Below, one piece after another: positions 1-48,613 of a stretch of 64,000 nucleotides of DNA. The DNA is from Ilumatobacteraceae bacterium. Its GTDB lineage: Bacteria > Actinomycetota > Acidimicrobiia > Acidimicrobiales > Ilumatobacteraceae. The DNA lies in assembly GCA_022843125.1 (NCBI GenBank), contig JALHOG010000001.1, positions 70,088-134,087 on the forward strand, written 5' to 3'. The notes beneath the pieces were generated by a model that was not told the DNA's origin, ran no database searches, and saw nothing but the letters and a program-made list of their open reading frames with translations. The stretch's first letter is position 1. Each line of letters starts with the position of its first letter. The position numbers and the translations under genes were made by a program.

Positions 1-153
1 CTGGGCGCCGGTGACACGTTCCGCGGCCCCGCGATCGTCGAGGAGCGCGAGACCACCGTGGTCATCCGGCCCGGCTGGGACGTCGAGGTCGCGACCGACG
101 GCAGCCTCGTCGCCTCGCGCCAGGCAGCAATGTCGACAGGAGCCACGTCATGA
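1..153 (+). CDS. hyuA: Hydantoinase/oxoprolinase subunit A, C-terminal end (partial)
   Basis: Only the last 50 codons are present; the gene starts before the window. The visible reading frame runs from base 1 to a TGA at 151-153 and contains GPAIVEE followed by a VVIRPGW segment. This is the characteristic C-terminal beta-rich end of the HyuA/OplaH family, the ATP-binding half of ATP-dependent hydantoinases, 5-oxoprolinase and related carboxylases. Its stop overlaps the start of the HyuB gene by four bases (ATGA), as expected for two subunits of one enzyme made in equal amounts. The substrate cannot be read from this fragment. Confidence 0.8.
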   Translation: MGAGDTFRGPAIVEERETTVVIRPGWDVEVATDGSLVASRQAAMSTGATS

Positions 154-1733: not shown

Positions 1734-1785
1734 GCGGTCGCAGCCCGCATCCCCACACCGCAGCCCCGACGAGACCGGAGTCCCC

Positions 1786-3036: not shown

Positions 3037-3107
3037 CCGAATCACGGTGTGATGAACGGATTGTGAGCAGTCCGTTTCGGACGCCGATCGAGCCAGATCG
3101 ACCAGCT

Positions 3108-3120
3108 ATGGTCAGACCAT
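3108..3120. promoter_or_regulatory. GntR/FadR-type operator palindrome before the importer
   Basis: ATGGTCAGACCAT is a perfect palindrome around its central base, matching the TGGTNNGACCA style of sites bound by FadR-subfamily GntR repressors (known for PdhR, LldR and relatives). It lies 40 nt before the importer start codon and overlaps a possible -10 element TATGGT (3107-3112), where bound repressor would block transcription. The same palindrome with one central change occurs at 16419-16437. Shorter inverted repeats GTCCG/CGGAC flank it at 3070-3082 and 3123-3137. Confidence 0.65.
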
Positions 3121-3160
3121 CAGTCCGAACACCGGACGACCGACAAGGGGGATACCAGGA

Positions 3161-4387
3161 ATGAACACTCGACCCACCACGACGCCGGTCCGCCGGCGCA
3201 TGTTGGCCGGTGTCGCGGCGCTGACCCTCGTGCTCGCCGCCTGCGGCAGCGACACCGAGGAGTCCGACGGCACCGAGCCCGCCGCCACCGACGCGACCGA
3301 CGCTCCCGCGGCAACCGATGCGCCGGCAGCGACCGACGCACCCGCCGCCACCGATGCACCCGAGCCCACCGAGGCACCCGAGCCCACCGAGCCCCCCGCG
3401 ACCGTTCCGGTCAGCGCGCTCGACACGAACGGTGACGGCGAGGTCGTGATCGGCATCGCGGCCGCCGGCCCTGCCGACGACGGCGCCTACTACCAGGCGG
3501 TCGTCGATGCGGCGATCGAGATCTCGACCGACAACGGGTTCGCCGAGCCGATCGTGTTCGACAACATCCAGGCCGCCGACGCCGCCACCGCCATCGGCGA
3601 CCTCGCCCAGCAGAACGTCGACGTGATCATCGTCGGTGCCTCCGAGATCGCCGAGCCGCTGCCGCAGCTGATCGCCGAGTACCCGGACATCTTCTGGTAC
3701 TGCAACTGCGGCGCCGGCTTCCCCGAGGATCCGGGTCTCGCCCAGAGCCTCGACGACGGCGGCGAGATCGGCTTCACCGCCGGCTACGCCACGGGCCTCG
3801 AGCTGCAGGAGGCAGGTGGCGATTCGGCCGTGTTCATCGGTTGCTGCGACCTCGGCTTCGAGAAGCAGGCGTACCTCGCGTTCGAGCTCGGTCTGCAGAC
3901 CGTCGACCCTGCGTTCACCGTGACCTACGTGCCGACCGGCGATTTCCCGTTCGACTTCGACAACACGGCCAACGCGGCGGCAGCACTCCAGACGGCCGTC
4001 GACGGTGGTGTCGACGCAGTGTTCCCGTACCTCGGCGGCGCCCACCGCCCGACGGTGCAGGCCGCCAACGAAGCGGGCGTCATCACGATGAGCGCCGGTG
4101 CGTCGAACGTCTGCGCCGCAGAAGAGGAACTCAGCTACAACATCGCCGTGCGCTTCGACGGCGGTGACTATGTGAGGGCCGTCATGGAGGAGATCGTCGA
4201 GGGCACGTTCACCGAGGGCACCGTCAAGGTGTTCAAGGTCGGGGTCGATCCGGAGCCGGGCGCCGTCATCTGCGAGGCCACCGCCGAGCAGCAGGCTGCG
4301 ATGGACGACATCTACACCCGCATCGCCGGCGGTGAGTTCGCCGCCCAGTTCGGCGAGATCGCCGGCATCGCATTCTCCGGCGGCTGA
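3161..4387 (+). CDS. BMP-family ABC transporter substrate-binding lipoprotein
   Basis: A 408-residue lipoprotein. The N terminus carries a signal peptide ending in the lipobox LAAC (C28), followed by a disordered linker of ATDAP-type repeats (residues 43-81) and then the Bmp/PnrA domain starting at GEVVIGIA. BMP proteins bind nucleosides (purine nucleosides in PnrA) for ABC import. It is the first gene of an importer set: binding protein, double ATPase and two permeases, all on the plus strand. An AAGGGGG stretch and AGGA precede the ATG. A second, differently built importer lies at 48614-54045. The nearby nucleoside hydrolase and deaminase-like enzymes fit a nucleoside or related heterocycle as cargo, but specificity is inferred. 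Confidence 0.88.
   Translation: MNTRPTTTPVRRRMLAGVAALTLVLAACGSDTEESDGTEPAATDATDAPAATDAPAATDAPAATDAPEPTEAPEPTEPPATVPVSALDTNGDGEVVIGIAAAGPADDGAYYQAVVDAAIEISTDNGFAEPIVFDNIQAADAATAIGDLAQQNVDVIIVGASEIAEPLPQLIAEYPDIFWYCNCGAGFPEDPGLAQSLDDGGEIGFTAGYATGLELQEAGGDSAVFIGCCDLGFEKQAYLAFELGLQTVDPAFTVTYVPTGDFPFDFDNTANAAAALQTAVDGGVDAVFPYLGGAHRPTVQAANEAGVITMSAGASNVCAAEEELSYNIAVRFDGGDYVRAVMEEIVEGTFTEGTVKVFKVGVDPEPGAVICEATAEQQAAMDDIYTRIAGGEFAAQFGEIAGIAFSGG
3287..3403 (+). repeat. ATDAP/EPTEAP repeat-encoding linker
   Basis: Imperfect in-frame repeats encode TDAPAA-type units followed by EPTEAP units, joining the lipidated cysteine to the binding domain. The unit number differs from the equivalent linker in the second BMP protein (53830-53955), suggesting repeat expansion and contraction. 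Confidence 0.75.
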
Positions 4388-4408
4388 CCCGCTACCGCCC
4401 GAGTCGCC

Positions 4409-5992
4409 TTGACCCAGCACGACACCATCGCCGGCGGGGACGCCACGTCCCCGCCGGCGATCGAACTGATCGGGATCACCAAGCGCTACGGCGCTGTCGT
4501 CGCGTGCGACGACGTACACCTCGCGATCCGCCCAGGTCGCATCCACGGCATCCTCGGGGAGAACGGCGCCGGCAAGTCGACGCTCATGAAGGTGTTGATC
4601 GGCCTTGTCATCCCCGACGCCGGTGAGGTACGCCGGCACGGCACCGCGATCCGCATCAACGACCCGGTCGCCGCTGCCGAACACGGCATCGGCATGGTCC
4701 ACCAGCACTTCTCGCTCGTCGAGCCGCTCACGGTGTGGGAGAACGTCGCCCTCGGCGATGTCGGCCGGCTCGACCCCCGACGCGTCCGGGCGCGGGTGGG
4801 TGAGATCAGCGAGCAGTACGGCCTCGAGATCGACCCCGACGATCGAATCAGCGACCTGCCCGCCGGGATGCGGCAGCGGGTCGAGATCATCAAGTGCCTC
4901 CGCCGTGACCCGGAAGTGCTGGTGTTCGACGAGCCGACATCGGTGCTGTCACCGGCCGAGTCCGAGTTCTTGTTCAACGCGCTGCGCACCGTCGTGGAGC
5001 GTGACGGCAAGGCGGTCGCCCTCGTCAGCCATCGCCTCGGCGAGGTGATGGCCGCCACCGACGAGATCACGATCATGCGCGACGGCCGAGTTGTCGAGTC
5101 GTTGTCCACCGCCGAGGCCGATGCCCGATCGCTGGCCCGTGCGATGGTCGGTCGTGAGGTGAGCCTTCGTGGTGACGTAATCCAGACCGGGTCGGCAAGC
5201 GATCACGTCCATCGCGACCGCACCGCCGAGGTGCCGGTCCTCCGCATCACCGACGCATCGGCCCGTGGTCGCGACGGGCGCGTGCTCCTCGACCGGCTCA
5301 GCGTCGACGTTCACGCCGGCGAGATCGTCGGCCTCGCCGGCGTCGAAGGCAACGGCCAGCGCGCCCTCGGTGACGTGCTGTCGAGTCTCCTCGCCCTCGA
5401 CTCGGGCCGCGTCGAGGTCGAGTCACGGGAGATCCCGACGGGTCGCGCCGGAGCGATGGCGCGAGCCGGTGTCGCGATCGTCCCGGAGGACCGTCACCAC
5501 TCGGGCTGTGTGCTCGACTTCAGCGTCGCCGAGAACATGTTCATCGCCGATCCCGAACGGGTCGCCCGGCGCGGACTCATGGACCGCGGCGAGATGGCGC
5601 GCCGAGCCGAGGCGCTCATCGACCGGTTCGACATCAGCTGTGCCGGACCAGACGCCCCGATGTGGTCGCTGTCGGGCGGCAATCAGCAGCGGGTGGTCAT
5701 GGCGCGAGAGCTGTCGCACGATCCGCGCGTGCTCGTCGCCGCTCAGCCCACCCGCGGGCTCGACGTCGGCGCGATCGAGTACCTGTCCGAACAGCTCCGC
5801 GCAGCGGCGCGCGGCGGCGTCGGGATCCTCCTCATCTCGACCGAACTCGAGGAGATCCTCGACCTGTCCGACCGCATCGTCGTCATCGCCAACGGGCACA
5901 TCGTCGGTGAGATGATCAACGCCGACGTCGACCTCGAACGGATCGGGATGCTCATGACTGGCGCTGCCGCCGAGAGCGGGGTGCCCTCGTGA
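4409..5992 (+). CDS. Double-NBD ABC transporter ATPase, nucleoside importer type
   Basis: A 527-residue protein with two nucleotide-binding domains in tandem. The first has Walker A GENGAGKST (residues 50-58), Q-loop MVHQHF, the family-typical signature LPAGMRQRVE and Walker B VFDEPT. The second has the usual degenerate P-loop GVEGNGQ and a canonical signature LSGGNQQRV. This architecture belongs to the sugar/nucleoside importer class (RbsA-, YufO-, RnsB-like). The start is TTG at 4409; no ATG or GTG lies between the previous stop and the conserved AIELIGITKRYG, so TTG is the best choice. It overlaps the first permease gene by four bases. Confidence 0.88.
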   Translation: MTQHDTIAGGDATSPPAIELIGITKRYGAVVACDDVHLAIRPGRIHGILGENGAGKSTLMKVLIGLVIPDAGEVRRHGTAIRINDPVAAAEHGIGMVHQHFSLVEPLTVWENVALGDVGRLDPRRVRARVGEISEQYGLEIDPDDRISDLPAGMRQRVEIIKCLRRDPEVLVFDEPTSVLSPAESEFLFNALRTVVERDGKAVALVSHRLGEVMAATDEITIMRDGRVVESLSTAEADARSLARAMVGREVSLRGDVIQTGSASDHVHRDRTAEVPVLRITDASARGRDGRVLLDRLSVDVHAGEIVGLAGVEGNGQRALGDVLSSLLALDSGRVEVESREIPTGRAGAMARAGVAIVPEDRHHSGCVLDFSVAENMFIADPERVARRGLMDRGEMARRAEALIDRFDISCAGPDAPMWSLSGGNQQRVVMARELSHDPRVLVAAQPTRGLDVGAIEYLSEQLRAAARGGVGILLISTELEEILDLSDRIVVIANGHIVGEMINADVDLERIGMLMTGAAAESGVPS

Positions 5993-7146
5993 GCGACCTC
6001 GGGACCACCTCGACCACCATCGACGAGGAGCGCGCCGAGGTCGTCGCGCAGGCCCGCGAGCGGTCACGCCGCGGCGTCACCGTCGAGGTGATCGGGCTGT
6101 ACGTCATCTGCATCTCGATCGCGCTCGCGCTCGCCGCGATCCTGGTCGCAGTCACGGGCGGGTCCTGGACCGCCGTGTACACAGCGATGCTCGATGGCAG
6201 CATCATCAACTCGGGACGTATCGGCCTCACCATCGGCGTCGCCACGCCGATCCTGCTCGTCTCGCTCGGCACGATCGTCAACGGGCGCGCCGGCCTGGTC
6301 AACATCGGTCAGGAGGGCCAGTTGGTGATGGGCGCGTGCTTCGCCGCCTTCGCTGCGGCTCGGCTCGACGGGCCCGGCCCGTTCGTCCTCGTCGTCGCGA
6401 TGCTGATCGGCGTGGTCGGCGGTGCCCTGTGGGCCGGCATCGCAGGCGTGCTGCGGTACTGGCGCAACGTGCCCGAGGTGCTCAGCACGCTGCTGCTCAC
6501 CACGGTGGCGGCCAACCTGATGGGCTGGGGGTTGCGCAAGGAATGGCTGCTGCTCGCCCCGGCGTCGGGGCGCGCCAACCGCAACCAGGTGAGCGAACCG
6601 TTGCCCGACGACACCCGCATCCCCCGTGTCACCTGGTTCGGCAACGAGTTCCCGATCTCGGCGATCGTCGCCGTGCTGCTCGCGATCGTGCTCGCCGTGG
6701 TGCTCGGTCGTTCGATCATCGGGTTCCGCCTGCGCATGCTCGGCACCAACCCTGGCACCGCGATGCGAGCGGGCGTCGCGGAGCGGCGATACGGCGTCGC
6801 GGCGATGCTCGTGTCGGGCGGCTTCGCCGGGCTCGCCGGCGGGTTCATGCTCGCCGGCGGTGACTTCGGCAACTATCAGCTGGTCGCCAACTTCGGCGCC
6901 GGCATCGGATTCGCCGGGTTGCTCGCCGCGCTCGTTGCTCGCCAGCGCGTCCTGATCGTGATCTTCGTCGCGTTCGTGTTCGGCGGTTTGCGCACGGGCT
7001 CCGGCTTCTTGCGCGCGACGGGCGTGTCGGGCCGCATCGCCGATGTGGTGCAGGGCCTCCTGGTGCTCGCGCTGCTGTTGCCACCGGCGATCTTGTACGT
7101 CCGTGAGCGCCGCCGTGCGCTCGCCGCAACGAGCGCACGGGTCTGA
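5989..7146 (+). CDS. Nucleoside-type ABC transporter permease 1
   Basis: A 385-residue inner-membrane permease of the BPD_transp_2 family (YufP/RnsC-like). About nine to ten hydrophobic segments are visible; the VNIGQEGQLVMGACFAAF block is the hallmark of this permease class. Its GTG start overlaps the ATPase stop (GTGA). It should pair with the permease encoded eight bases downstream to form the heterodimeric channel of the importer. The counterpart in the second importer is the gene at 50008-51117. Confidence 0.86.
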   Translation: MSDLGTTSTTIDEERAEVVAQARERSRRGVTVEVIGLYVICISIALALAAILVAVTGGSWTAVYTAMLDGSIINSGRIGLTIGVATPILLVSLGTIVNGRAGLVNIGQEGQLVMGACFAAFAAARLDGPGPFVLVVAMLIGVVGGALWAGIAGVLRYWRNVPEVLSTLLLTTVAANLMGWGLRKEWLLLAPASGRANRNQVSEPLPDDTRIPRVTWFGNEFPISAIVAVLLAIVLAVVLGRSIIGFRLRMLGTNPGTAMRAGVAERRYGVAAMLVSGGFAGLAGGFMLAGGDFGNYQLVANFGAGIGFAGLLAALVARQRVLIVIFVAFVFGGLRTGSGFLRATGVSGRIADVVQGLLVLALLLPPAILYVRERRRALAATSARV

Positions 7147-7154
7147 GGATCGTC

Positions 7155-8093
7155 ATGGGAGATTTCTTCAACGCACTCGGCGACATCGCCACCAACGAGA
7201 GCGCGTATCGCAACGCGATCATCGCTGCGGTGGTGCTGATGCTCGCAGCCTCGGGCGAGCTCGTCGCCGAGAAGGCCGGCACGATCAACATCTCGCTCGA
7301 GGGCATGATCCTGGGAGGCGCGTTCGCCGCCGCTATCGGCCAGCACGCGTTCGGCTCGGTGTGGGTCGGGCTGCTGTTCGCGATGCTCGCCGGCATCGTG
7401 GTGGCCTGGGTCCAGGCGAACATGAGCCACCGCTTGCCCGCCGACCAGTTCGTGGTCGGGCTCGTGCTGAACGTTCTGGTGCTCGGTGTGGTCGGCTTCC
7501 TCGCGAGCGAGATCGAGCCCGAGACCAACATCGTCGGCCGGGTGCGGATCCCGCTCCTGGCCGACATCCCGCTGTTCGGCCCGGCTCTGTTCGACCAGCC
7601 GTGGGTGCTGTACCTCGTCTACCCGGTGGTGCCGTTCGTGTGGTGGTTGGTCTACCGCACGCGATGGGGCCTCGAGGTGCGAGCGGTCGGTGAAGACCCG
7701 AACGCGGCCGACGTCTCCGGTCTGCACGTCAACAAGCTGCGCCGGCAGACGATCTACCTCGCCGGTCTCACCGCCGGTCTGGCGGGCGGCTACTTCCTGT
7801 TCGCCCGTGCCGGCCAGTTCGAGGACTCGCTCGTGGGCGGGCGTGGCTACATCGCGATCGCTGCCGTCATCTTCGGCGGCTGGACGATGAAGGGCACGGT
7901 CGGCGGCTGCATCCTGTTCGGGCTGGTCGGCTCGTTCGTGCTCACCATCCCGTCGCTCGGCTACGAGTCGGTCGATCCGGCGTTCCTCGCGATGGCACCG
8001 AACGTCGTCACGATCCTCGCGATGGCGTTCTTCGCCACCCGCGTCCGCCAACCGTCGGCGCTGGCCCGCCCGTTCCTGCGCGGCCTCAAGTAG
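7155..8093 (+). CDS. Nucleoside-type ABC transporter permease 2
   Basis: A 312-residue inner-membrane permease (YufQ/RnsD-like), with the signature GTINISLEGMILGG near residue 40 and the late FEDSLVGGRGYIAIAAVIFGGW region typical of the second permease. It is the partner of the preceding permease. It is about 150 residues shorter than its counterpart at 48614-50011, which has an extra C-terminal membrane extension. Its TAG stop lies inside the first unit of a 13-bp tandem repeat that runs to the ribosome-binding site of the next gene. Confidence 0.86.
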   Translation: MGDFFNALGDIATNESAYRNAIIAAVVLMLAASGELVAEKAGTINISLEGMILGGAFAAAIGQHAFGSVWVGLLFAMLAGIVVAWVQANMSHRLPADQFVVGLVLNVLVLGVVGFLASEIEPETNIVGRVRIPLLADIPLFGPALFDQPWVLYLVYPVVPFVWWLVYRTRWGLEVRAVGEDPNAADVSGLHVNKLRRQTIYLAGLTAGLAGGYFLFARAGQFEDSLVGGRGYIAIAAVIFGGWTMKGTVGGCILFGLVGSFVLTIPSLGYESVDPAFLAMAPNVVTILAMAFFATRVRQPSALARPFLRGLK

Positions 8094-8128
8094 TCGAGCG
8101 ACGTAGTCGAGCGAAGTAGACGAGCGAA
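8090..8128 (+). repeat. Three tandem 13-bp units spanning a stop codon
   Basis: GTAGTCGAGCGAC, GTAGTCGAGCGAA and GTAGACGAGCGAA follow each other without gaps. The first contains the TAG stop of the permease; the third runs into the GAAGGAG ribosome-binding site of the next gene. Only three units without spacers, so it is a tandem duplication and not a CRISPR array. Confidence 0.85.
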
Positions 8129-8137
8129 GGAGTCTCG

Positions 8138-9175
8138 ATGAAGGCAGTCCTGTACCGACAGACCGGCGGGCCCGAGGTGCTCGAGTACGTCGACGTCCCC
8201 GATCCCGAACCGGGTGCCGGCGACGTGATCGTGCGGGTCGAGGCGTGTGCGCTCAATCGGCTCGACGCGGTGCAGCGCAACGGCTGGTTCCAGATGCCCG
8301 GGTTCGAGTTCCCGCACATCGCCGGGATGGATGTGGCCGGCACCGTGGTCGCCGTCGGTGACGCCGTGACGTCGGTGGCGGTCGGCCAGCGCGTCGTGGT
8401 CGACCCGTCGCTCGCCGGGGTCGCGGACGATTCCCGCCTCGCAGGCATGGGCGACCTCTACGGCGAGCTCGGGATCATCGGCGCCACCGTCGCCGGTGGC
8501 TACGCCGAGTTGTGCCTGGCACCGGCCTCGCACGTGTACCCGGTGCCCGACGACATGCCGATCGAGCACGCCGCCACCTTCCCCACGTGCTACCTCACCG
8601 CCGCGCACGCCCTGTTCGACGTCGGCGGGCTGCAGGCCGGCGAGACGATCCTGATCCACGCTGCGGGCGCCGGCGTGTCGGTCGCGGCGATCCATCTCGC
8701 GAAGCATGCGGGGGCCACCGTGCTCGCCACGGCCGGGAGTGACGAGAAGTGCGAGCGGGCGCTCGCGCTCGGTGCCGACTACGTGTTGAACAACCGCACG
8801 GGCGATGTCGCCGGCTGGGCGCGCGGCGTCACCCAGGGCGCGGGTGTGCGGATGGTGTTCGACCATGTAGGCACGGCTCTGTTCGGGCCGTCGCTGTTCG
8901 CGATCGGCGTGAAGGGCCGGCTCGTCAACTGCGGCAACTCGTCGGGCGACTCGGCCGAGATCCCGTCGCTCGGGTACCTGTTCCACTCCGGGATCTCGAT
9001 CATCGGCTCCGACCCGTACCGGCCCGAGGAGTTCGGCCCGGTGTGGCAGACCTTCTGTGACGAACGGTTCCCCGTCGCGATCGACTCCGAGTTCGCGCTC
9101 GCCGATGCGGGAGCCGCTCAGGGCAAGATGCTCGCCAACGACGTCTTCGGCAAGATCATCCTGAAGCCGTCCTGA
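8138..9175 (+). CDS. MDR-superfamily NAD(P)-dependent oxidoreductase (quinone reductase-like)
   Basis: A 345-residue medium-chain dehydrogenase/reductase. The N-terminal GroES-like domain is present (HIAGMDVAGTVVAVGD) but lacks the cysteine cluster that holds structural zinc in alcohol dehydrogenases, so it is closer to quinone oxidoreductases. The Rossmann fold starts at ILIHAAGAGVS. Translation starts at ATG after GAAGGAG. It is 44 nt downstream of the importer permeases and probably shares their transcript. It likely reduces an enone or quinone-like intermediate; the actual substrate is not visible from sequence. Confidence 0.8.
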   Translation: MKAVLYRQTGGPEVLEYVDVPDPEPGAGDVIVRVEACALNRLDAVQRNGWFQMPGFEFPHIAGMDVAGTVVAVGDAVTSVAVGQRVVVDPSLAGVADDSRLAGMGDLYGELGIIGATVAGGYAELCLAPASHVYPVPDDMPIEHAATFPTCYLTAAHALFDVGGLQAGETILIHAAGAGVSVAAIHLAKHAGATVLATAGSDEKCERALALGADYVLNNRTGDVAGWARGVTQGAGVRMVFDHVGTALFGPSLFAIGVKGRLVNCGNSSGDSAEIPSLGYLFHSGISIIGSDPYRPEEFGPVWQTFCDERFPVAIDSEFALADAGAAQGKMLANDVFGKIILKPS

Positions 9176-9181
9176 TCGTCG

Positions 9182-10264
9182 ATGTTCGAGCCGCGGGACG
9201 CTCCGTATCCGGAGCTCAAGAAGACCCACACGATGTCGCGGACGGGGCGCCCGTACAGCGACTTCAAGCCGCCGGCCGCGGCACCGGTGTGGGCCGCGAT
9301 CGAGGGGCTCGGGCGCTATCACGTGCTGCTCGCGGCGATCGAGCTCGACGTGTTCGACGCGCTGCGCGATGCCGGGCCCTCGACCGCCGCCGCGCTCGCC
9401 GAGCGGCTCGATGTATCGGTTCCGCATCTCGCGTCACTGCTCGACGGTGTGATCGCGCTCGGTCTGCTCGACAAGGTCCGAGACGTGTACGAGCTCAATG
9501 ACACGGCCAAGCGCTACCTGGTGAGCAACGGTCCGGCATGTATGGCAGACCTCATCGCCGTCGCCCCCGGTCCGCACGACAACTGGACCCGGCTGGCCGA
9601 CACGGTCCGCCACGGCCGCCCGTCAACCCCGATCGAGGACGACCCGGAGGCCTTCTACGTCCCCCTCGTCGAGGGCACGTTCACGACGATGTGGCGCACG
9701 GCGACGCGCGCCGACCTGAAGATGCGGTACTCCACCACGCCGGCGGCGCGCATCCTCGACCTGGGGGCCGGGGGCGCCCCCTGGGCGATCGCGATGCTCA
9801 CCGCGTGTCCGGAGGGGAGCGCAGTGGTCAACGACTTCGATGCCGTGCTCGACGTCGCCCGCCGCAAGACGGCCGAGTTCGGCGTCGCCGGCCGCTGCGA
9901 GTTCCGGCCTGGGAGCTACTTCGAGATCGACATCGAACCCGACGCCTACGACATCGTCGTGCTCGGCCACATCTGCCGGGCCGAGGGTGCCGAGGGTGCG
10001 CGACGCCTGATCCGGATCGCCTTCGATGCGCTGCGTCCGGGTGGTCGCGTGGTGCTCGCCGACTACTTCCAGGATCCCGAGAAGAAGATGAACCCGCACG
10101 CCGTGATGATGGGCGTGACCATGATGGCGAGCACGGCTCGCGGCTTCACCTACACCCCCGGCGAGTTCGGCGACTGGTTGCGCACGGCCGGGTTCAGCGA
10201 CCTCCGCCTGATCGAACCGATCGGGTTCCAGCAGAGCATCATCGCCACCCGACCGCCCCGGTGA
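9182..10264 (+). CDS. SAM-dependent methyltransferase with N-terminal dimerisation domain
   Basis: A 360-residue protein built like plant-type O-methyltransferases and their bacterial relatives. A winged-helix dimerisation domain at about residues 38-105 (ELDVFDAL, followed by AERLDVSVPHLASLLDG) precedes a Rossmann methyltransferase domain with the SAM-binding ILDLGAGGAPWA motif near residue 190. An acidic residue in NDFDAV probably holds the SAM ribose. It starts six bases after the oxidoreductase gene and ends the importer transcript. An alternative internal ATG (MSRTGRPY) would drop 17 residues. The methylated compound is unknown. Confidence 0.8.
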   Translation: MFEPRDAPYPELKKTHTMSRTGRPYSDFKPPAAAPVWAAIEGLGRYHVLLAAIELDVFDALRDAGPSTAAALAERLDVSVPHLASLLDGVIALGLLDKVRDVYELNDTAKRYLVSNGPACMADLIAVAPGPHDNWTRLADTVRHGRPSTPIEDDPEAFYVPLVEGTFTTMWRTATRADLKMRYSTTPAARILDLGAGGAPWAIAMLTACPEGSAVVNDFDAVLDVARRKTAEFGVAGRCEFRPGSYFEIDIEPDAYDIVVLGHICRAEGAEGARRLIRIAFDALRPGGRVVLADYFQDPEKKMNPHAVMMGVTMMASTARGFTYTPGEFGDWLRTAGFSDLRLIEPIGFQQSIIATRPPR

Positions 10265-10305
10265 GTACGGGCTCGCGCTCCGGTCGCGTCGAGGCCTCCG
10301 TGGGG

Positions 10306-11268
10306 TCAGGCGAGCATCGTGCGGAGCTCGAGGTCGACCACGGCGGCGCCCTCGACCCCGATGCACACGTTGACGAGCGGGCGACCGTGCCAATGTTCGA
10401 GTCGGTGGTCATCGGTGTCGCCGAGAGCCGGCCACGTCTTGCCGCGGCTGATGCCGTCGGTGCAGTCGACACGGATCGGCCACTGCTCCGTCGTGAACAG
10501 CTCGGGTGCGACGAGGTACGCGATCGCGGAGGAGTCGTGGATGTAGATGCCCTCGATCCCGACACGGTCGCGGTAGAAGTCGCGGTAGAAGGGGACGATC
10601 GCAGCGATGTGCTGCGCCATCGGGTGGTCGATAGTGCCGTACCGGCCGAGGTGTTCGTTGTCCATGTGCACGTGGTGGGTCACGTCGAGGCCGACCATCG
10701 TCACCCGCCATTCGGCGCCGAACACGAGGTCGGCGGCTTCCGGATCGTTGCGGATGTTGGCCTCCGCCGCCGGCGTCGCGTTGCCGAGCCCGATGGCATT
10801 GCCGCCCATCAACACGACCTCGTCGACCAGTTCGGCGATCCGCGGTTCGAGCCGCAGCGCGAGCGCGAGATTGGTCAACGGGCCGATCGGCACGAGGGTG
10901 ATCTCGCCCGGGCGGGCCAGCACCTGCTCGATGATGAACTCGGCGGCGGTCCGATCGACCGGTTGCCGTTCGGACGGCGCGAGGTCGACGTTGCCCTGAC
11001 CGTCGTCGCCGTGGACGAACGCCACAGGGCCGGAGTAGGGCACGCACAGCGGGTCGGCTGCGCCCCTGGCAACGGGGATGTCGGGTCGCTCGGCGATGTC
11101 GAGCAGCCGGAGCGCGTTGACGGTGGCCAGCTCGGTGGTGACGTTGCCGAAGATCGTCGTGAGACCGATCACGTCGAGCGCCGGATGGCGGAGCGCGAAG
11201 AAGATCGCCATCGCATCGTCGACGCCAGGGTCGGTGTCGATGATGATCGGTCGCGGTGCAGCGGTCAT
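10306..11268 (-). CDS. Inosine-uridine preferring nucleoside hydrolase family
   Basis: A 320-residue nucleoside N-ribohydrolase. The calcium- and ribose-binding signature DTDPGVDDAMA lies at residues 11-21, with D11, D13 and the D17-D18 pair all conserved. Downstream segments such as VPIGPLTNLALAL and VLMGGNA also fit the family. It cleaves nucleosides to base and ribose. The ATG at 11268 places the motif at the usual distance from the N terminus; the longer open frame upstream is not needed. It converges on the methyltransferase and runs divergently from the first amidohydrolase, so imported nucleosides could be hydrolysed and the base deaminated by neighbours. Confidence 0.9.
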   Translation of the reverse strand: MTAAPRPIIIDTDPGVDDAMAIFFALRHPALDVIGLTTIFGNVTTELATVNALRLLDIAERPDIPVARGAADPLCVPYSGPVAFVHGDDGQGNVDLAPSERQPVDRTAAEFIIEQVLARPGEITLVPIGPLTNLALALRLEPRIAELVDEVVLMGGNAIGLGNATPAAEANIRNDPEAADLVFGAEWRVTMVGLDVTHHVHMDNEHLGRYGTIDHPMAQHIAAIVPFYRDFYRDRVGIEGIYIHDSSAIAYLVAPELFTTEQWPIRVDCTDGISRGKTWPALGDTDDHRLEHWHGRPLVNVCIGVEGAAVVDLELRTMLA

Positions 11269-11366
11269 GGCGCTAGCCCAGCACGTGCCGGTCGTCAGCC
11301 CACAATCCGGAGGCAGTCGGCGCACCCGGTACGGTCCGGCAACGTCCGCGAGAGTGAGGAGCAGCG

Positions 11367-12740
11367 GTGAAGCAGATCCTGGTACGTGGTGACGTCGTCA
11401 CGATGAACCCGACACGCGACGTGCTCGTCGGGGGTGCCGTCGTGTTCGACGAGGACGGCATCGTCGCCGTCGGCTCGACCTCGGCCCTGCTCGCCGAGCA
11501 CACCGACGCGCAGGTGCACGACGTGAGCGGGTGCGTGGTCACGCCAGGGATGGTCAACGCGCACCAGCACCACACGGGCGACCCGCTCGTGCGCAGCTGC
11601 ATCCCCGACCTGCTGCCACCGGGTGCCGCGATCTTCGAGTGGGCCGTACCGATCCACGCCGCACACACACCAGCCGACGACGAGGTCGCGGCCACGATCA
11701 CCGCGCTCGAGTCGCTCCGCAACGGGGTGACGACGGTGATCGAGGCGGGCACGGTCGCGCATCCGGAGTGGGTCGCGGCCGGGATGTCGGCCGCCGGTGT
11801 GCGAGGCACGATCGGCGTGTGGGGCTGGGACATCGAGGTCGGTCCGTTCGCAGCCCCGTGCGACGAGGTGCTCGACCGCCAACGCGCCGTGGTGTCGCAG
11901 TTCCCGGCGGGCGGCCTGATCGAGGGGTGGGTGACGCTCGTCGGCCACGACCTCGCGTCCGACGCGCTGCTCGCCGGAGCGTCGGATCTGGCGCGCGAGC
12001 TCGGCACGTCGATGACGATGCACCTGTCGCCCACCTCGAGCGATCCGGAGCGATATCTGGAACGCACCGGCCGCCGGCCGGTAGTCCACCTCGACGCGCT
12101 CGGCGCGCTCGGCCCGCACCTGCTCCTCGCTCACGGCGTCTGGCTCGACGACGACGAGGTGGATCTCGTGCTGTCGTCGGGCACGGCGATCGCGTACTGC
12201 CCGTGGGCCTACCTCCGGCTCGGTCAGGGGGTCACCGTCGCCGGGCGGCACGCCGAGATCGTGGAGCGCGGGGGTCGGGTGGCGCTGGGGTGCGACGCGT
12301 CGAACGCCGGCGACACGGGGGACATCCTGCGTGCCGCTGCTGCTGCGGCGGGCATCGCTCGCGACCGGAGGCTGCTCCCCGAGCAGTTCGGTGCGCACCA
12401 GGCGTTCGAGCTGGCGACGATCGCCGGAGCGGAGGCGGTGGGGATGGCCGATCGGGTCGGCTCGCTCGAACCCGGCAAGCAGGCCGACATCGTCGTCCAC
12501 CGGGCGAGCGGATGGGGATGGTCGCCGCGTGGTGACGTCGGCCTGCAGCTCGTGTGGGGGACCGACGGCCGCAGCGTCAGCGACGTCTGGGTCGGCGGTC
12601 GGCAGGTGATCGCCGACGGTCGCAGCACCCAGGTCGACGAGGACGCGCTGTACGCGGCGGCCGCCGACGCCCAGCGCAGCCTCCTCGACCGCACCGGCAT
12701 CCAGGTCCCCCACGTCTGGCCCCACATCCCCTCGGCGTGA
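11367..12740 (+). CDS. Amidohydrolase superfamily, cytosine/guanine-deaminase-like 1
   Basis: A 457-residue member of the amidohydrolase (TrzA/AtzA, cytosine deaminase, SAH deaminase) group. The metal motif H66-x-H68 (VNAHQHHTGD) is present, with later LLAHGVWLDD and GCDASNAGD segments giving the remaining histidine and aspartate ligands. The segment that is usually HCP is YCP here (AIAYCPW). Start is GTG preceded by GTGAGGAGC. It is clearly a paralogue of the protein at 13907-15286: both open with RG-x-x-VVTMN-x-TRDV. Such enzymes deaminate nucleobases, adenosine derivatives or triazines. Its TGA is the first triplet of a 31-nt hairpin repeat. Confidence 0.85.
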   Translation: MKQILVRGDVVTMNPTRDVLVGGAVVFDEDGIVAVGSTSALLAEHTDAQVHDVSGCVVTPGMVNAHQHHTGDPLVRSCIPDLLPPGAAIFEWAVPIHAAHTPADDEVAATITALESLRNGVTTVIEAGTVAHPEWVAAGMSAAGVRGTIGVWGWDIEVGPFAAPCDEVLDRQRAVVSQFPAGGLIEGWVTLVGHDLASDALLAGASDLARELGTSMTMHLSPTSSDPERYLERTGRRPVVHLDALGALGPHLLLAHGVWLDDDEVDLVLSSGTAIAYCPWAYLRLGQGVTVAGRHAEIVERGGRVALGCDASNAGDTGDILRAAAAAAGIARDRRLLPEQFGAHQAFELATIAGAEAVGMADRVGSLEPGKQADIVVHRASGWGWSPRGDVGLQLVWGTDGRSVSDVWVGGRQVIADGRSTQVDEDALYAAAADAQRSLLDRTGIQVPHVWPHIPSA

Positions 12741-12768
12741 CGGATTGGGTCAGACCAACTCCGTCACA
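12738..12768 (+). terminator. TGACGGA/TCCGTCA hairpin repeat, copy 1
   Basis: TGACGGATTGG and CCAACTCCGTCA can pair around GTCAGA, leaving a 29-bp near palindrome whose first three bases are the amidohydrolase stop. It sits between two convergent genes, so it probably ends both transcripts. Two further copies of the same element follow at 15289-15360. Its centre GGTCAGACC matches the core of the operators at 3108 and 16419. Confidence 0.65.
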
Positions 12769-12773
12769 GATCG

Positions 12774-13793
12774 TCACGCGCGGAGGCGGGTGGGGGAGAG
12801 GTGGGGGTTGTGGTAGCCGGCGTCGCGGGGGTTGATGGTGGTGCCCGGCGGGACGATGGTGTCGATCGCCGCGAGGGTGTCGGCGTCGAGGCGGATGTCG
12901 GCGAGTGCGAGCAGGTCGGCGAGCTGGTCGGGGGTGCGCGGGCCGATCAGTACCGAGCTCACCGCTGGGTGTGCGAGCGCGAATGCGAGCGCGAGCCCGG
13001 TCAGCGGCATACCGGCTGCCTCGGCGACGGCGGTCAGCCGGTCGACCGCGTCGAACTTGACCTCGCGCCAATCGCTGCCGAGGTCGAAGTGGTCGGGCTC
13101 GCGCTCGGCGCGTGACGCTGCGGGCGGCGGTTGATCGCGGCGGTACTTGCCGGTGAGCCAGCCACCGTTGAGGGGAGCCCACACCAGGGCGCCGATGTCG
13201 TACTTCCGGCACGTCGGCAACACCGCCTGCTCGACCCCGCGACACAGGATCGAGTACGGCGGCTGCTCGCTGGTGGGGCGGGCGCGTCCGTCCCGGTCGG
13301 CGATCCACTGTGACTCGACGATCTGCTCGGCGGGGAACGTCGACGTGCCGACGGCGCCGACGAGGCCTTCCTCGACGAGCTCGGTGAGCGCACCGAGCGT
13401 CTCGTCGAACGGCACGTCAGGATCGGGCCGGTGCATCTGGTACAGATCGATGTGGTCGGTGCGGAGCCGGCGCAGGCTGTCGGTGACGGCTTCTCGTACC
13501 CATCGGCGCGAGCCGCCACGGTGGGCCGGATCGTCGTCCATCGCGTTGCCGAACTTCGTCGCGAGGACCACACGGTCGCGCTGGCCGGCGAGGGCCTGCC
13601 CGACGATGTCCTCCGACACGCCGAAGTCATAGATGTCGGCAGTGTCGAACAGTGTGATGCCGGCGTCGAGTGCCATGTCGACCATCCGGTTGCACTCGCT
13701 GCGGTCGGGGTTGCCCCACGCACCGAACATCATGGTCCCCAGGCCGAACGAGCTCACCTCGATGCCGGACGATCCCAACCTGCGCTGCTCCAT
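12774..13793 (-). CDS. Aldo/keto reductase
   Basis: A 339-residue NADPH-dependent oxidoreductase of the AKR superfamily (TIM barrel). The catalytic tetrad is visible: the aspartate and tyrosine in DTADIYDFG, the lysine in LATKFG and the histidine in YQMHRPD. The NADPH-binding C-terminal part SSVLIGPRTPDQL is also present. The ATG at 13793 (MEQRRLGSSGIEVS) is the natural family start; upstream in-frame residues would be an unusual extension overlapping the divergent amidohydrolase promoter. It lies between the two amidohydrolase paralogues. Substrate unknown. Confidence 0.88.
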   Translation of the reverse strand: MEQRRLGSSGIEVSSFGLGTMMFGAWGNPDRSECNRMVDMALDAGITLFDTADIYDFGVSEDIVGQALAGQRDRVVLATKFGNAMDDDPAHRGGSRRWVREAVTDSLRRLRTDHIDLYQMHRPDPDVPFDETLGALTELVEEGLVGAVGTSTFPAEQIVESQWIADRDGRARPTSEQPPYSILCRGVEQAVLPTCRKYDIGALVWAPLNGGWLTGKYRRDQPPPAASRAEREPDHFDLGSDWREVKFDAVDRLTAVAEAAGMPLTGLALAFALAHPAVSSVLIGPRTPDQLADLLALADIRLDADTLAAIDTIVPPGTTINPRDAGYHNPHLSPTRLRA

Positions 13794-13894
13794 CCCGCGA
13801 GTGTGCCGTGCCGCGCGGTGCCGTGCCGAGGCGGTCGCGAGAACGTTCACCGTGCGGTAACGCGTCGGGTTCTCGCTCGGAATCGGTGGCTGCG

Positions 13895-13900
13895 TAGGGT
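13895..13900 (+). promoter_or_regulatory. -10 element of a probable leaderless promoter
   Basis: TAGGGT ends six bases before the GTG start at 13907, so the transcript should begin at or next to the start codon. No ribosome-binding site is present. The -35 region is not well defined. Confidence 0.5.
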
Positions 13901-13906
13901 CTCCGT

Positions 13907-15286
13907 GTGAGCAAGACACTGATCCGTGGTTCGCACGTCGTGACGATGAACGCGACCCGAGATGTCATTCGCCACGGGGCCGTCGTGATCGACGGCGACC
14001 GCATCGTTGCCGTCGGCAAGGCAGCCGATCTGGCCGCCCAGCACCCTGACGCAGAGGTGGTCGGGAGCGACCACTTCGTCGTCACGCCGGGCATGGTAAA
14101 CACCCACATCCACATCACCGGCGAGCCGCTGACGCGTGGGTACGTCCCCGACGACACACCCTTCGAGGAGAACGTCTTCATGTGGCTCGTGCCGCTGTAC
14201 TCGGTGTACACCGCCGAGGAGGAGCGGCTGTCGGGCCAGCTCGCCGCGGTCGAGATGCTGAAGTCGGGCACGACGACGTTCCTCGAGGCCGGCACGATCC
14301 GCTTTCTCGACGAGGTGGTCGACGGGCTCGTCGAGGTCGGCATCCGCGGGCGGGTGGGCCGCTGGGTGTGGGACCTGCCGCCCGAGCCCGACGTGTACCA
14401 CCAGCGCACCGACGAGGCGATCGCCCATCTCCAACGCCAGCTCACCGATCTCAAGTCGGTCGCAGGTGGCCGGCTCGGCGCCTGGTCGACGCTCGTCGGC
14501 CACACCACGTGCTCCGACCCGCTGTGGAAGGCCGCCCGCGAGCTGGCGACCGAGCATGGGGTCGGGATGAGCTTCCACATGTCACCGGCGATGCTCGACC
14601 CCGACGGGTTCACCGCCGAGTTCGGTCACCGCCCGATGATCCACCTCGCCGAGCTCGGCGTGCTCGCCGACGACGTCGCGATCACGCACTGCGTCCAGGT
14701 CGACGACCAGGAGCTCGCAGTGATGGCCGAGCACAAGGTGTCGGTCGCGCACTGTCCGACCACCGCGTTGAAGGTCAGCTACGGCGTCACGAAGGTCGGC
14801 AAGATGCCCGAGATGATGCAGGCCGGGATCAACGTGTCGATCGGTACCGACGGCAACAACGCATCGAACTACTCCGACCTGCACCGCGCCACCTACCTCG
14901 TCGCCGGGCTGTTCAAGGACGGTCGCCAGGACCCGCAGATGTTCCCCGCCGAGATGGCCTACGAGATGGCAACGATCGGCGGCGCACGCACGATGCTCAT
15001 GCAGGACGAGATCGGTTCGCTCCAGGTCGGCAAGAAGGCCGACATCGTCCTGCATGACATCGACCGGCCCGAGTGGCGGCCGTTGCTGAACGTGATGAAC
15101 CAGCTCGTCTGGTCGGCCGACGGTCGCGGCGTGCACAGCGTGTGGGTCGACGGAAGCAAGGTCGTCGAAGCGGGCCGTATGACCACGATCGACGAAGCCG
15201 AGCTCTACGCGAAGGCGCAGGCGATGGGTGAGGCGATCACCCTCCGCAGCGGCCTCCCCGACAAAGCCAAGTTCCCGGTGTGGTGA
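13907..15286 (+). CDS. Amidohydrolase superfamily, cytosine/SAH-deaminase-like 2
   Basis: A 459-residue metal-dependent deaminase or hydrolase. H67-x-H69 (VNTHIHITGE) and the later ITHCVQVDD and IGTDGNNAS segments supply the metal ligands; VAHCPTTALK corresponds to the family HCP motif that the paralogue at 11367-12740 has changed to YCP. The chemistry is most likely hydrolytic deamination or dechlorination-type hydrolysis of a heterocycle, as in guanine deaminase, SAH deaminase and TrzN relatives. The two copies flank an aldo/keto reductase. The GTG start is leaderless. A long inverted repeat follows three bases after the stop. Confidence 0.85.
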   Translation: MSKTLIRGSHVVTMNATRDVIRHGAVVIDGDRIVAVGKAADLAAQHPDAEVVGSDHFVVTPGMVNTHIHITGEPLTRGYVPDDTPFEENVFMWLVPLYSVYTAEEERLSGQLAAVEMLKSGTTTFLEAGTIRFLDEVVDGLVEVGIRGRVGRWVWDLPPEPDVYHQRTDEAIAHLQRQLTDLKSVAGGRLGAWSTLVGHTTCSDPLWKAARELATEHGVGMSFHMSPAMLDPDGFTAEFGHRPMIHLAELGVLADDVAITHCVQVDDQELAVMAEHKVSVAHCPTTALKVSYGVTKVGKMPEMMQAGINVSIGTDGNNASNYSDLHRATYLVAGLFKDGRQDPQMFPAEMAYEMATIGGARTMLMQDEIGSLQVGKKADIVLHDIDRPEWRPLLNVMNQLVWSADGRGVHSVWVDGSKVVEAGRMTTIDEAELYAKAQAMGEAITLRSGLPDKAKFPVW

Positions 15287-15288
15287 TG

Positions 15289-15360
15289 TGACGGAATGGG
15301 TCAGACCGACTCCGTCACAGCTCCAGCCGTGACGGAGTTGGTCTGACCCATTCCGTCACA
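15289..15360. terminator. Paired inverted copies of the TGACGGA hairpin repeat
   Basis: Copy 2 (15289-15319, plus) and copy 3 (15330-15360, inverted) face each other across a short spacer, forming a 72-nt inverted repeat between the convergent amidohydrolase and glyoxalase-fold genes. Each copy is itself a near palindrome with centre GGTCNGACC, so either two small hairpins or one long stem can form. It should terminate transcription from both sides. Confidence 0.75.
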
Positions 15361-15363
15361 CGA

Positions 15364-15888
15364 CTACTCGATGGTCCAGCCGTCGGGGAGCTTGGCGTCG
15401 CCGACGAGTTCGTGGGTGTCGGGGTCCTGCTCGATGCCCTCGAGGTGGGCCCAGAGCATGATCTGGTTGCCCCACGGGTCGAGGAACGAGGCGTTGGCGC
15501 CGCCGAACTCGGTCCAGAAGTGGTTGGTCCACAGCACGGTGCCACCGTTGGCGGCGGCGGCGTCGAGGATCCGCTCGAACGAGTCGTCGTCGCTGACCAG
15601 GATCCAGGCGCGGGTGTGGCGGCCGCCGTCGTGCATGCTGGTCGGCGCCGGCGGGGCGGGGTCGGGGTGCGGGCGTGCGTTCTTGGACAAGAAGATGCCC
15701 ATGTGCAGGTTGCCGGTGGGACCGGGCTCGCCGTCGACGAGGAACGTCTGGCCGGGCACGATGCGGTGGAACACGCCCGGGATCCGCTCCTCGACCTCCC
15801 AGCCGAACACGGTCGTGTAGAAGCGGTTCGCCTCGTCGACGTCGTCGACCGGGAAGTCGACGAACACGAGGATGTTGGGGTAGGTCAC
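15364..15888 (-). CDS. VOC (glyoxalase/bleomycin-resistance fold) family protein 1
   Basis: A 174-residue vicinal-oxygen-chelate protein. VFVDFPVDDVDEANRFYTTV is the usual first beta-alpha unit, and FLDPWGNQIML is the conserved second-module strand. Members are metal-dependent lyases, extradiol dioxygenases, isomerases or binding proteins. It lies 28 nt downstream of a second VOC gene on the same strand and probably shares its promoter. The pair stands opposite a Rieske oxygenase, so a role in handling the oxygenase product is plausible. The precise reaction cannot be assigned. Confidence 0.8.
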   Translation of the reverse strand: MTYPNILVFVDFPVDDVDEANRFYTTVFGWEVEERIPGVFHRIVPGQTFLVDGEPGPTGNLHMGIFLSKNARPHPDPAPPAPTSMHDGGRHTRAWILVSDDDSFERILDAAAANGGTVLWTNHFWTEFGGANASFLDPWGNQIMLWAHLEGIEQDPDTHELVGDAKLPDGWTIE

Positions 15889-15916
15889 AGCAGGTCCTTT
15901 CTGACTGTCCGAACGG

Positions 15917-16393
15917 TCACGCGCCCCAGACCTCCTTGGCCTTGGCGTACACGCCCTGGTCGAAGGAGTACTCGATCGTGTTGCCGTCGGGGTCCTTCAG
16001 CATGCAGATGTAGCCGATCGGCGGGGGCATGTCGGTGGGCGGCATGCCGAGGCAGCCGGCGGCCTGACCCTTGGCGGCCATTGCCTCGATCTCCTCGCGG
16101 CTCGTGAGCTCGATGCCGAGGTGGGCGAACGGCGCGAGGATCTCCTGCGGGGCGTTCTTGAACGGGTCGGTCTCGGGAAGGAACTGGGCGAGCACGAGGA
16201 TGAACGGTGTGTCGGGGGAGTCGGACATGCCCAGCCAGGCGCCGAACCCCATGTCGTCCTGGCGCTTCTCGAGCAGCTCCATCGGGGTGAACTCGGTGTA
16301 CCACGCGATCGATGCGTCGATGTCCTTGACGCGCAGCGCGATGTGCGTCCAGCGCGGCGTCGGCGGGTGCTCGGCGTAGAGACGGTCGGCCAT
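15917..16393 (-). CDS. VOC (glyoxalase/bleomycin-resistance fold) family protein 2
   Basis: A 158-residue VOC protein with WTHIALRVKDIDASIAWYTE at the N terminus and LKDPDGNTIEYS near the C terminus, where the glutamate is the usual metal ligand. The ATG at 16393 lies eight bases from a -10 TACTGT on the minus strand and has no ribosome-binding site, indicating a nearly leaderless transcript. The gene diverges from the Rieske oxygenase at 16461, with one palindromic operator between them. Function within the family is unassigned. Confidence 0.82.
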   Translation of the reverse strand: MADRLYAEHPPTPRWTHIALRVKDIDASIAWYTEFTPMELLEKRQDDMGFGAWLGMSDSPDTPFILVLAQFLPETDPFKNAPQEILAPFAHLGIELTSREEIEAMAAKGQAAGCLGMPPTDMPPPIGYICMLKDPDGNTIEYSFDQGVYAKAKEVWGA

Positions 16394-16401
16394 GGTCCGG
16401 G

Positions 16402-16454
16402 ACAGTAGCACCGTTGGTCCGATGGTCTGACCATCGGAGTTGTTCGTCTACTGT
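16402..16454. promoter_or_regulatory. Divergent promoters sharing one GntR/FadR-type operator
   Basis: The palindrome CCGATGGTCTGACCATCGG (16419-16437) is perfect around its central base. A TACTGT -10 lies on each side: 16449-16454 for the plus strand (six bases before ATG 16461) and 16402-16407 read on the minus strand (eight bases before ATG 16393). With normal spacing, both -35 regions fall inside the palindrome, so one bound repressor would shut both genes. The core matches the site at 3108-3120. Confidence 0.7.
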
Positions 16455-45304: not shown

Positions 45305-45384
45305 GGAGCCCAGGCTACTTCGGCGGCTGCCGACCGGCTGCCGGGCGGCTGTTCTGCCGGTTGCCGGAGCGAGGTGGGTTCGCG

Positions 45385-45412
45385 TTGCCGGGGCCTGCCA
45401 TGTCCCTAGAAT
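45385..45412 (+). promoter_or_regulatory. Promoter upstream of the glycosyltransferase gene
   Basis: TTGCCG and TAGAAT with a 16-base spacer. The start of transcription should fall near 45418-45419, which leaves a leader of about 225 nt before the glycosyltransferase start at 45644, or only a few bases before the mini-ORF at 45422. Confidence 0.55.
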
Positions 45413-45421
45413 TCGGAGGGC

Positions 45422-45478
45422 ATGAGTTCAACGCTTCCTCCATCTGACCGTTGTGCGCTCGGGGCTCTCATCCACTGA
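45422..45478 (+). CDS. Possible 18-residue leader peptide
   Basis: ATG preceded by GGAGGG at ideal spacing, followed by 18 codons (MSSTLPPSDRCALGALIH) and TGA. It lies directly at the predicted transcript start and 165 nt before the glycosyltransferase gene. It is too short for a family assignment and could be chance; the ribosome-binding site is its main support. Confidence 0.25.
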   Translation: MSSTLPPSDRCALGALIH

Positions 45479-45643
45479 CCGTGCGTCCGATCACGCGGTA
45501 CCTCCAGCGAGCGGCGCATGGACTCGAGCGGTTCTGCAGTACCGCGATGACCCGAGCACGCCGTGCTGTGTGCTTCGTGGTTCCGGCCGGCACGGTGCCC
45601 GCCGCCGTGTGCCTCTCCTGAACGCGTCGGGCGAGTTCTGCTG

Positions 45644-46585: not shown

Positions 46586-46625
46586 TCGATCGCTGCCACG
46601 TCAGGACGACGGCATCCGCAGTCGG

Positions 46626-47519: not shown

Positions 47520-47523
47520 CCCC

Positions 47524-48603: not shown

Positions 48604-48613
48604 GCAGGCGTCG

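Follow-up and report, generated by a model that had tools for sequence, protein, structure and literature searches.

A conserved palindrome, probably the operator of an adjacent FadR-subfamily regulator, joins an importer, Rieske oxygenases and further catabolic genes in an Ilumatobacteraceae bacterium

We analysed a 64,000-nt stretch of an Ilumatobacteraceae bacterium (assembly GCA_022843125.1, contig JALHOG010000001.1, here C1, positions 70,088 to 134,087; hereafter, the window), in which a first-pass annotation had marked a GntR/FadR-type palindrome in front of an importer and of a second Rieske oxygenase locus. Both palindromes are present where they had been reported, exact to the letter: ATGGTCAGACCAT at 3108-3120 and CCGATGGTCTGACCATCGG at 16419-16437. 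The accompanying statement that the two cores differ in the central base was wrong, as ATGGTCAGACCAT is the reverse complement of the second core, ATGGTCTGACCAT, and the two are one 13-mer on opposite strands. Upon scanning the whole assembly (5,489,905 bases, 183 contigs, 93% complete; window base 1 is C1:70088), as the annotation had proposed, we found three exact copies of this 13-mer and none of its reversed control, and one of the copies precedes an apparent operon that holds a FadR-type regulator gene. All three copies fall within ~20 kb (C1:66450-86521), a span that three random points would share with a probability of ~4e-5. The exact matches gain significance at the scale of the whole assembly; within the window alone, three core matches with up to two mismatches were obtained against a shuffle mean of 2.1, which is ordinary. 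Hereafter, we refer to the three copies as operators A, B, and C.

Operator A (ATGGTCTGACCAT followed by CAGTCC; C1:66450-66462, forward strand) lies 3.6 kb to the left of the window and heads an apparent operon, all of it on the forward strand: VOC1 (C1:66499-66999), the regulator gene (C1:66996-67721), a Cupin_2 protein (C1:67749-68132), the hydantoinase/oxoprolinase subunit A HyuA (C1:68129-70240, or L005:8129-10240, its end occupying 1..153 of the window), the HyuB-type subunit B (150..1733), and Rieske oxygenase 1 (1729..2976, start codon not fixed), whose nearest solved proteins are phthalate 3,4-dioxygenase and carnitine monooxygenase subunits. The regulator gene, which encodes 241 amino acids from a GTG start, begins 534 bases past the end of operator A and lies 2.4-3.1 kb left of the window, and its start codon overlaps the VOC1 stop (GTGA). 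It accounts for the only one of the genome's 28 GntR-domain matches that is found on contig C1. Operator A thus stands in the promoter region of the regulator's own operon (VOC1-GntR), and in many relatives the GntR gene likewise lies a short way downstream of a site or comes after a VOC1 that is itself preceded by one. The regulator is accordingly a local one and is probably autoregulated. The first-pass annotation had seen no regulator in the window, which is right for GntR genes (other regulator families were not searched for), and had placed it at a distance, which is not supported, an FCD-type GntR gene being found next door.

Operator B (T-ATGGTCAGACCAT-CAGTCCG; 3107..3127, forward strand) has its core at 3108-3120 and a third half-site at 3121-3126 on the gene side, and the core ends 41 bases ahead of the first gene behind it, which encodes a Bmp/PnrA-like substrate-binding lipoprotein (3161..4387, forward). 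A -10-like TATGGT (3107-3112, forward; 4 of 6 positions as in TATAAT) overlaps the site and may serve as a -10 box; of 32 VOC1 sites, 31 retain the T that precedes the core. Operator C (TGGTCCG-ATGGTCTGACCAT-CGGA; 16415..16438, core 16422-16434, third half-site on the VOC3 side) stands between two divergent units, with VOC3 (15917..16411, reverse) as the first leftward gene and VOC2 (15364..15888, reverse) behind it, both of the glyoxalase superfamily, and with Rieske oxygenase 2 (VanA_C type; 16461..17453, forward) on the other side. It sits midway between two mirror copies of CTACTGT that are 39 nt apart, namely the candidate -10 of Rieske 2 (16448..16454, forward) and, as ACAGTAG, the candidate -10 of VOC3 (16402..16408, reverse). 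If these copies are -10 boxes, the position of operator C fits the shared -35 region of two divergent promoters.

The regulator carries a GntR domain (PF00392, 8.1e-20) and an FCD domain (PF07729, 2.5e-18), both over the Pfam cut-off, and by its domains it is a member of the FadR subfamily of the GntR family. Among the 25 NCBIfam matches shown, none reaches its cut-off: NanR scored best with 96.9 of 260 bits, LldR reached 83.1 of 311, and the FadR models 39.4 of 189 and 34.2 of 249.2 bits. With these scores below cut-off, we rejected both NanR and fatty-acid FadR as names for it. We aligned the protein with 49 distinct full-length orthologues that are 40-57% identical to it (50 rows; partial, stop-holding, or identical orthologues were left out). 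In the DNA-binding domain, E39, R50, R54, E55, and R68 are identical in every row and R40 in 98% of them, and H153, H206, and H228 of the FCD domain are conserved at 100% and D149 at 96%. Many FCD domains share conserved metal-site residues, an Asp and three His; these are present here as candidate metal ligands. In one relative (G020, L089:4222-5022), a second FCD-type GntR gene, 40% identical, lies near the first and is perhaps a duplicated regulator with another operator.

The operator proved to be longer than the 13-mer, taking the form TATGGTCWGACCATCAGWCCA with a third half-site that is usually on the gene side. After removal of identical 51-mers and of sites near locus ends, 78 sites remained (48 one-direction, 13 divergent, and 17 without a cluster gene start within 250 nt), with gene starts extrapolated from tblastn; all 78 were chosen as exact cores, such that core conservation is built in and only the flanks and the centre are informative. 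The 48 one-direction sites yielded the extended element TATGGTC-W-GACCAT-CAG-WCCA. On the gene side, CAGWCC matched at 6 of 6 positions in 41 of these 48, its positions other than W being 92-100% conserved, while the upstream side matched at 2 of 6 or fewer in 44 of 48. Promoters of VOC1, cupin, and Bmp genes have the third half-site between core and gene; in the two one-direction Rieske 2 sites it lies upstream, as it does in operator C relative to Rieske 2. GACCA and GWCCA are repeated at an 8-bp step, with GWCC at +9 to +12. Among the 17 sites without a cluster gene start, eight match the third half-site at 5 or 6 of 6 positions and nine lack it. In VOC1 promoters, the median distance from the core centre to the estimated start codon is 38.5 nt (range 24-76). 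In the own genome, operators A and B are perfect copies of the extended motif and operator C departs from it at one position; a scan allowing up to three mismatches returned, beyond the three cluster sites, one place with two and the remainder with three. No place beyond the cluster having fewer than two mismatches, we rejected, for want of support, additional regulon members elsewhere in the genome.

The accessible text of Suvorova and co-workers (PMC4494728) gives TKGT/ACMA as the FadR-subfamily consensus, with 3 nt between GT and AC in most of the subfamily, and, for 13 FadR-subfamily groups, describes extra half-sites of lower strength that flank the centre at 7-12 nt on one side or on both. 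ATGGTCWGACCAT conforms to this palindrome with 2-3 nt spacing and recurs before orthologues, and binding to it is predicted. The third box seen here, at +9 to +12, falls in the range given for such GntR operators and differs from theirs in being nearly as conserved as the core and orientation-specific. An extra half-site is therefore known in kind, and it is its strictness and direction that are unusual.

We followed the site into two sets of relatives. In the first set of 100 related genomes, own included, the exact site was found in 34 and the reversed control in 3. HyuB is present in 24 of the 100, and the exact site occurs anywhere in the genome in 20 of these 24 versus 14 of the 76 others. 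Among the four HyuB-bearing genomes without an exact site, the contigs end near the cluster in three (G011, G037, and G043), and in the fourth (G093) a form with two mismatches precedes Rieske 2. We picked 20 loci from the 34 genomes with a site, mostly for clustered or A/T-centred sites, and in this biased selection the sites stand beside orthologues in 17 (not in L067, L070, and L073); the counts over the 100 genomes and over the second set below are free of such picking. Across changed gene orders, sites precede orthologues of VOC1, cupin, GntR, Bmp, Rieske 2, VOC2, and two TRZ/ATZ-type amidohydrolases (AmH1 and AmH2). Seven of the 14 site-bearing genomes without HyuB were fetched at length, and in six of them the surroundings of the site yielded at most ABC or aldo-keto reductase matches to cluster genes, all of less than 40% identity. 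The second set comprised the best 80 of 127 HyuB-bearing relatives, partly the same loci as in the first, most of them titled as Acidimicrobiia or other Actinomycetota metagenome assemblies. Here, we counted 43 exact sites in 32 loci, compared to a mean of 0.06 (largest 8) for 179 permuted-half-site palindromes. Recurrence of the site in relatives before orthologues, which had been named as a check, is thus found, also after gene-order changes, and the proposed GntR/FadR-type regulon linking importer, second Rieske gene, and further catabolic genes is supported. Three loci titled Bifidobacterium breve (L168, L174, and L184) hold the cluster genes and fall in one HyuB clade with L171, L172, and L178, which come from actinobacterium or Actinomycetota bins; their titles look mislabelled.

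Across the 80 loci, regulator and site go together. The regulator is present in 38 loci, 30 of which contain an exact site, and of the 42 loci without it, two contain an exact site, both from genomes with the regulator on another contig. We searched the 41 genomes behind these 42 loci (L142 and L145 share one) for the regulator at a threshold of E <= 1e-30, and obtained a match elsewhere in 11 and no match in 30. For each locus we then scored the closest match in the 180 nt preceding cluster genes, leaving out L145, which for the tree contrasts was merged with L142. All 38 regulator-bearing loci scored two mismatches or fewer (0, 1, and 2 in 29, 4, and 5 loci), while the 30 loci from genomes without a regulator match showed at least four in 27, the other three not being scorable. 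Where the regulator lies elsewhere (11 loci), 0, 1, and 2 mismatches were found in 2, 1, and 3 loci, and two were not scorable. For the VOC1 promoter, which is covered in 34 of the 38 and 24 of the 30 loci, two mismatches or fewer occurred in 33 of 34 with the regulator in the locus, and fewer than four in 0 of 24 without a regulator. The corresponding Fisher value (1.8e-14 for one mismatch or fewer) treats loci as independent and is overstated. In a HyuB tree with 81 rows, those regulator-less loci whose VOC1 promoter was scored fall in two clades (10 and 16 rows), and in the only two independent pairs that it allows the site went the same way as the regulator in 1.8 on average, the opposite way in none, and showed no difference in 0.2. 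Five tree rows have the regulator and no VOC1-promoter site: in L122, L127, L128, and L148, Rieske 2 precedes VOC1 and carries TTGGTCTGACCAA, and in L142 the contig starts inside Rieske 2. Loss of the site in relatives that keep the genes, which the first-pass annotation had regarded as fatal to its proposal, does occur; it does not refute the regulon, because the same genomes lack a regulator match, and the loss fits the pairing. We take the isolate names of many of the regulator-less loci to denote sponge metagenomes. One of the 80 loci, L135, belongs to a sponge bin that appears in the accessible part of PMC5649159.

Taken together, these data point to the palindrome as the operator of the adjacent FadR-subfamily GntR regulator, controlling the three-operator catabolic regulon, a prediction to which we assign a probability of roughly 0.85. 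Its basis in the sequences is fourfold: three exact copies in one 20-kb cluster, the regulator behind one of them, recurrence before orthologues, and joint presence of regulator and site. The palindrome is a real, conserved site that in all likelihood has a function. Mechanistically, a regulator dimer would read TGGTC/GACCA, and a further subunit or dimer may occupy the third half-site (GWCCA, at the 8-bp step from GACCA). The complex would cover a -10-like box and the transcription start at operators A and B, and the -35 region common to the two divergent genes at operator C; lying over promoter elements, it would therefore repress. A pathway intermediate bound by the FCD domain would release the regulator. 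The unit behind operator A would then comprise the autoregulator with VOC1, cupin, HyuA/HyuB, and Rieske 1, that behind operator B the importer and probably the dehydrogenase and methyltransferase genes that follow it, and that of operator C VOC2/VOC3 and Rieske 2. Of the earlier picture of a distant GntR-family repressor over transport and oxygenase genes, the joint regulon is retained and the distance is dropped; repression, and an effector sensed by the regulator, remain predictions.

A number of observations weigh against this assignment. Relaxed cores are abundant, with 115 places of up to two mismatches in the whole assembly against 34 for the reversed control, and only the exact or extended form is specific; at the nine one-mismatch places among them, tblastn for cluster genes, the sole check made there, gave one weak ABC match. 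The covariation of site and regulator comes down to two phylogenetically independent contrasts, too few for a significant sign test. Three of the 11 loci with the regulator elsewhere have four or five mismatches. In L168, L171, L172, L174, and L178, the core is weakened (TGGTCTGACAA), with the second half-site damaged and the outer one kept (TGGTCTGACAATCAGACC), and degenerate forms were also found in L139 (GTGGTCAGACCATCAGACCA), L170 (TTGGTCTGACCATCAGACCA), and L128 (TGGTCAGTTGGTCTGACCAA). In the own genome, AmH1, AmH2, and a neighbouring aldo-keto reductase (AKR) gene have no exact site of their own. Finally, neither operator B nor operator C gave a promoter in strict sigma-70 scans. Because of this, the promoter assignments at both are to be read as inference: of the claim that the sites sit on promoters, what stands is the TATGGT overlapping the first site, and the second covers two -35 regions only if the flanking CTACTGT copies are -10 boxes.

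Among the alternatives, the one that fares best, although unlikely, is that the regulator activates its targets instead of repressing them. Such a role has precedent, since the accessible part of PMC4537474 describes positive regulation of fabA and fabB by E. coli FadR, and operator C lies near -35, a position that permits activation. At the VOC1 promoter, however, the core overlaps a -10-like TATGGT, where a bound protein would block polymerase, and lineages that keep the genes without the regulator fit the loss of a repressor better than that of a needed activator. It is rather improbable that the palindrome is bound by another GntR-family regulator of the genome, the adjacent FCD regulator having a different operator. 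The 28 GntR-domain matches leave room for one, and TKGT/ACMA boxes are common to the FadR-subfamily sites analysed in the accessible text of PMC4494728; yet all three exact sites flank the cluster of the adjacent regulator, the site tracks this regulator across relatives (the sole GntR regulator that was traced), and in genomes without a regulator match, none of the 27 scorable loci has a near match ahead of the genes it retains.

Very little speaks for an RNA element, that is, a terminator or attenuator hairpin. The operator C region does form a 9-pair stem and was flagged as terminator-like, but operator B was not flagged, the sites precede first genes at a distance typical of promoters, and the conservation includes an unpaired, direction-dependent third half-site; the counted sites being exact cores, base changes in the stem could not be judged here. 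Chance recurrence of a short palindrome, in keeping with the unremarkable number of window matches at two mismatches or fewer and with the exact copies in 14 of the 76 genomes without HyuB (among the seven fetched at length, six point to single copies arising by chance), can practically be dismissed against 43 sites versus a control mean of 0.06, exact copies that in the own genome are confined to the cluster, placement before orthologues after gene-order changes, and the separability from the rest of nine copies without cluster genes or third half-site.

Compared with described systems, the predicted operator of the adjacent regulator defines a new regulon of the FadR subfamily, of known kind. 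Like E. coli FadR, LldR, PdhR, and GlcC, the regulator combines GntR and FCD domains with a TGGT-NNN-ACCA palindrome, and its gene is likewise local, beside catabolic and transport genes; it differs in being no orthologue of a named member and in having a different gene set. NanR, its best NCBIfam score, resembles it in having repeated half-sites, here the 8-bp step from GACCA to GWCCA. The E. coli NanR operator, (GGTATA)3, consists of three direct repeats bound as three dimers, and the cooperativity is ascribed to a 32-residue N-terminal extension, as stated in the accessible part of PMC8012715. Here, in contrast, the core is an inverted pair with half-sites TGGTC/GACCA in place of GGTATA direct repeats, and the Pfam GntR match of the regulator begins at residue 14. 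By analogy, three-dimer binding is a possible model for the third half-site.

The remaining genes of the cluster give some indication of its pathway. Behind the binding-protein gene follow, all forward, an ABC transporter ATPase (4409..5992), ABC permeases 1 (5989..7146) and 2 (7155..8093), a zinc-type dehydrogenase/quinone reductase-like gene in importer direction (8138..9175), and a methyltransferase (dimerisation and Methyltransf_2 domains; 9182..10264). A nucleoside hydrolase (IU_nuc_hydro in Pfam; 10306-11325, reverse) lies inside the cluster in opposite direction; it does not appear in the tblastn hits listed for the loci of relatives and is probably not core. AmH1 (11367..12740, forward), the cluster neighbour AKR (12774..13919, reverse), and AmH2 (13907..15286, forward) come next, both amidohydrolase genes being site-bearing in the relative locus L074. 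The importer binding protein matches only TmpC. For both amidohydrolases, the top scores are to 5'-deoxyadenosine and related deaminases and stay below cut-off. HyuA and HyuB match caprolactamase subunits best in NCBIfam, yet with 467.4 and 177.5 bits against a cut-off of 1000, which would place them in a subfamily other than caprolactamase. Rieske 2 has SxtDIOX/SxtT and the methylxanthine demethylases NdmA/NdmB as its nearest solved proteins and is a distant relative of NdmA (4.7e-39). In contrast to the NdmA/NdmB pathway, the present cluster also includes HyuA/HyuB, two amidohydrolases, a cupin, and a Rieske 1 that is closer to oxygenases for carnitine/betaine and phthalate, and there is no evidence here for methylxanthine as the substrate.

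From these enzyme families, our guess is that the regulon probably serves to take up a methylated, nitrogen-rich heterocycle and to degrade it oxidatively; we considered creatinine/N-methylhydantoin, methylxanthine, carnitine-like, and guanidinium compounds, and the data single out none of them. Relatives additionally have sites beside a formamidase-family gene (L076, and L073 next to urease alpha) and a mandelate-racemase-type gene (L079). In G021, far from the HyuB cluster (L073:7683-13601), two exact sites flank a TauE-type permease, the second of them preceding the formamidase-family gene that adjoins urease alpha, near isochorismatase- and arginine-deiminase/DDAH-type genes; this region is possibly a second arm of the regulon. 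In G002 (L065:14654-16171), an AMP-binding ligase gene that is absent from the own genome lies between HyuB and Rieske 1, with its best NCBIfam score, below cut-off, to crotonobetaine/carnitine-CoA ligase, and gaps of ~1.5 kb at the same place, for example in L064, L066, L068, and L069, may hold a ligase gene of this type. Elsewhere in the window (43356-54045, reverse), a second Bmp/ABC/permease importer lies beside two adenosine-deaminase-type genes and a PhyH-type oxygenase, without an operator (PhyH and the first deaminase were assigned by Pfam, the others from frame order and N-terminal sequence); it is perhaps a separate nucleoside-type uptake locus. We rejected this importer (48.6-54.0 kb) as a regulon member, as there is no core with two mismatches or fewer there, the nearest being at 45644-45656.

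In the open-licence PMC literature, the titles and abstract starts among the matches listed held no description of this cluster or regulon. A metagenome study reports hyuA/hyuB as enriched in sponge symbionts and tied to colonisation, and its accessible part names no such pathway or regulator (PMC5649159). Tentatively, and at slightly less than even odds, we picture an undescribed regulon, widely shared in Acidimicrobiia, for a methylated, nitrogen-rich heterocycle (purine-alkaloid or guanidinium-like), with a PnrA-type importer, two Rieske oxygenases, amidohydrolases, and a HyuAB ring-opening enzyme, a third half-site with almost the strictness of the core, and two lineages (at least in part associated with sponges) that lack regulator and operators and in which the pathway may be constitutive. 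The operator provides a sequence handle on a pathway that would otherwise be only a list of enzyme families, telling which genes work together here and in dozens of relatives, most of them uncultured, and the regulator could be used as a sensor in the search for the substrate. Moreover, the joint absence of regulator and operators from lineages that keep the enzymes constitutes a natural experiment on regulation.

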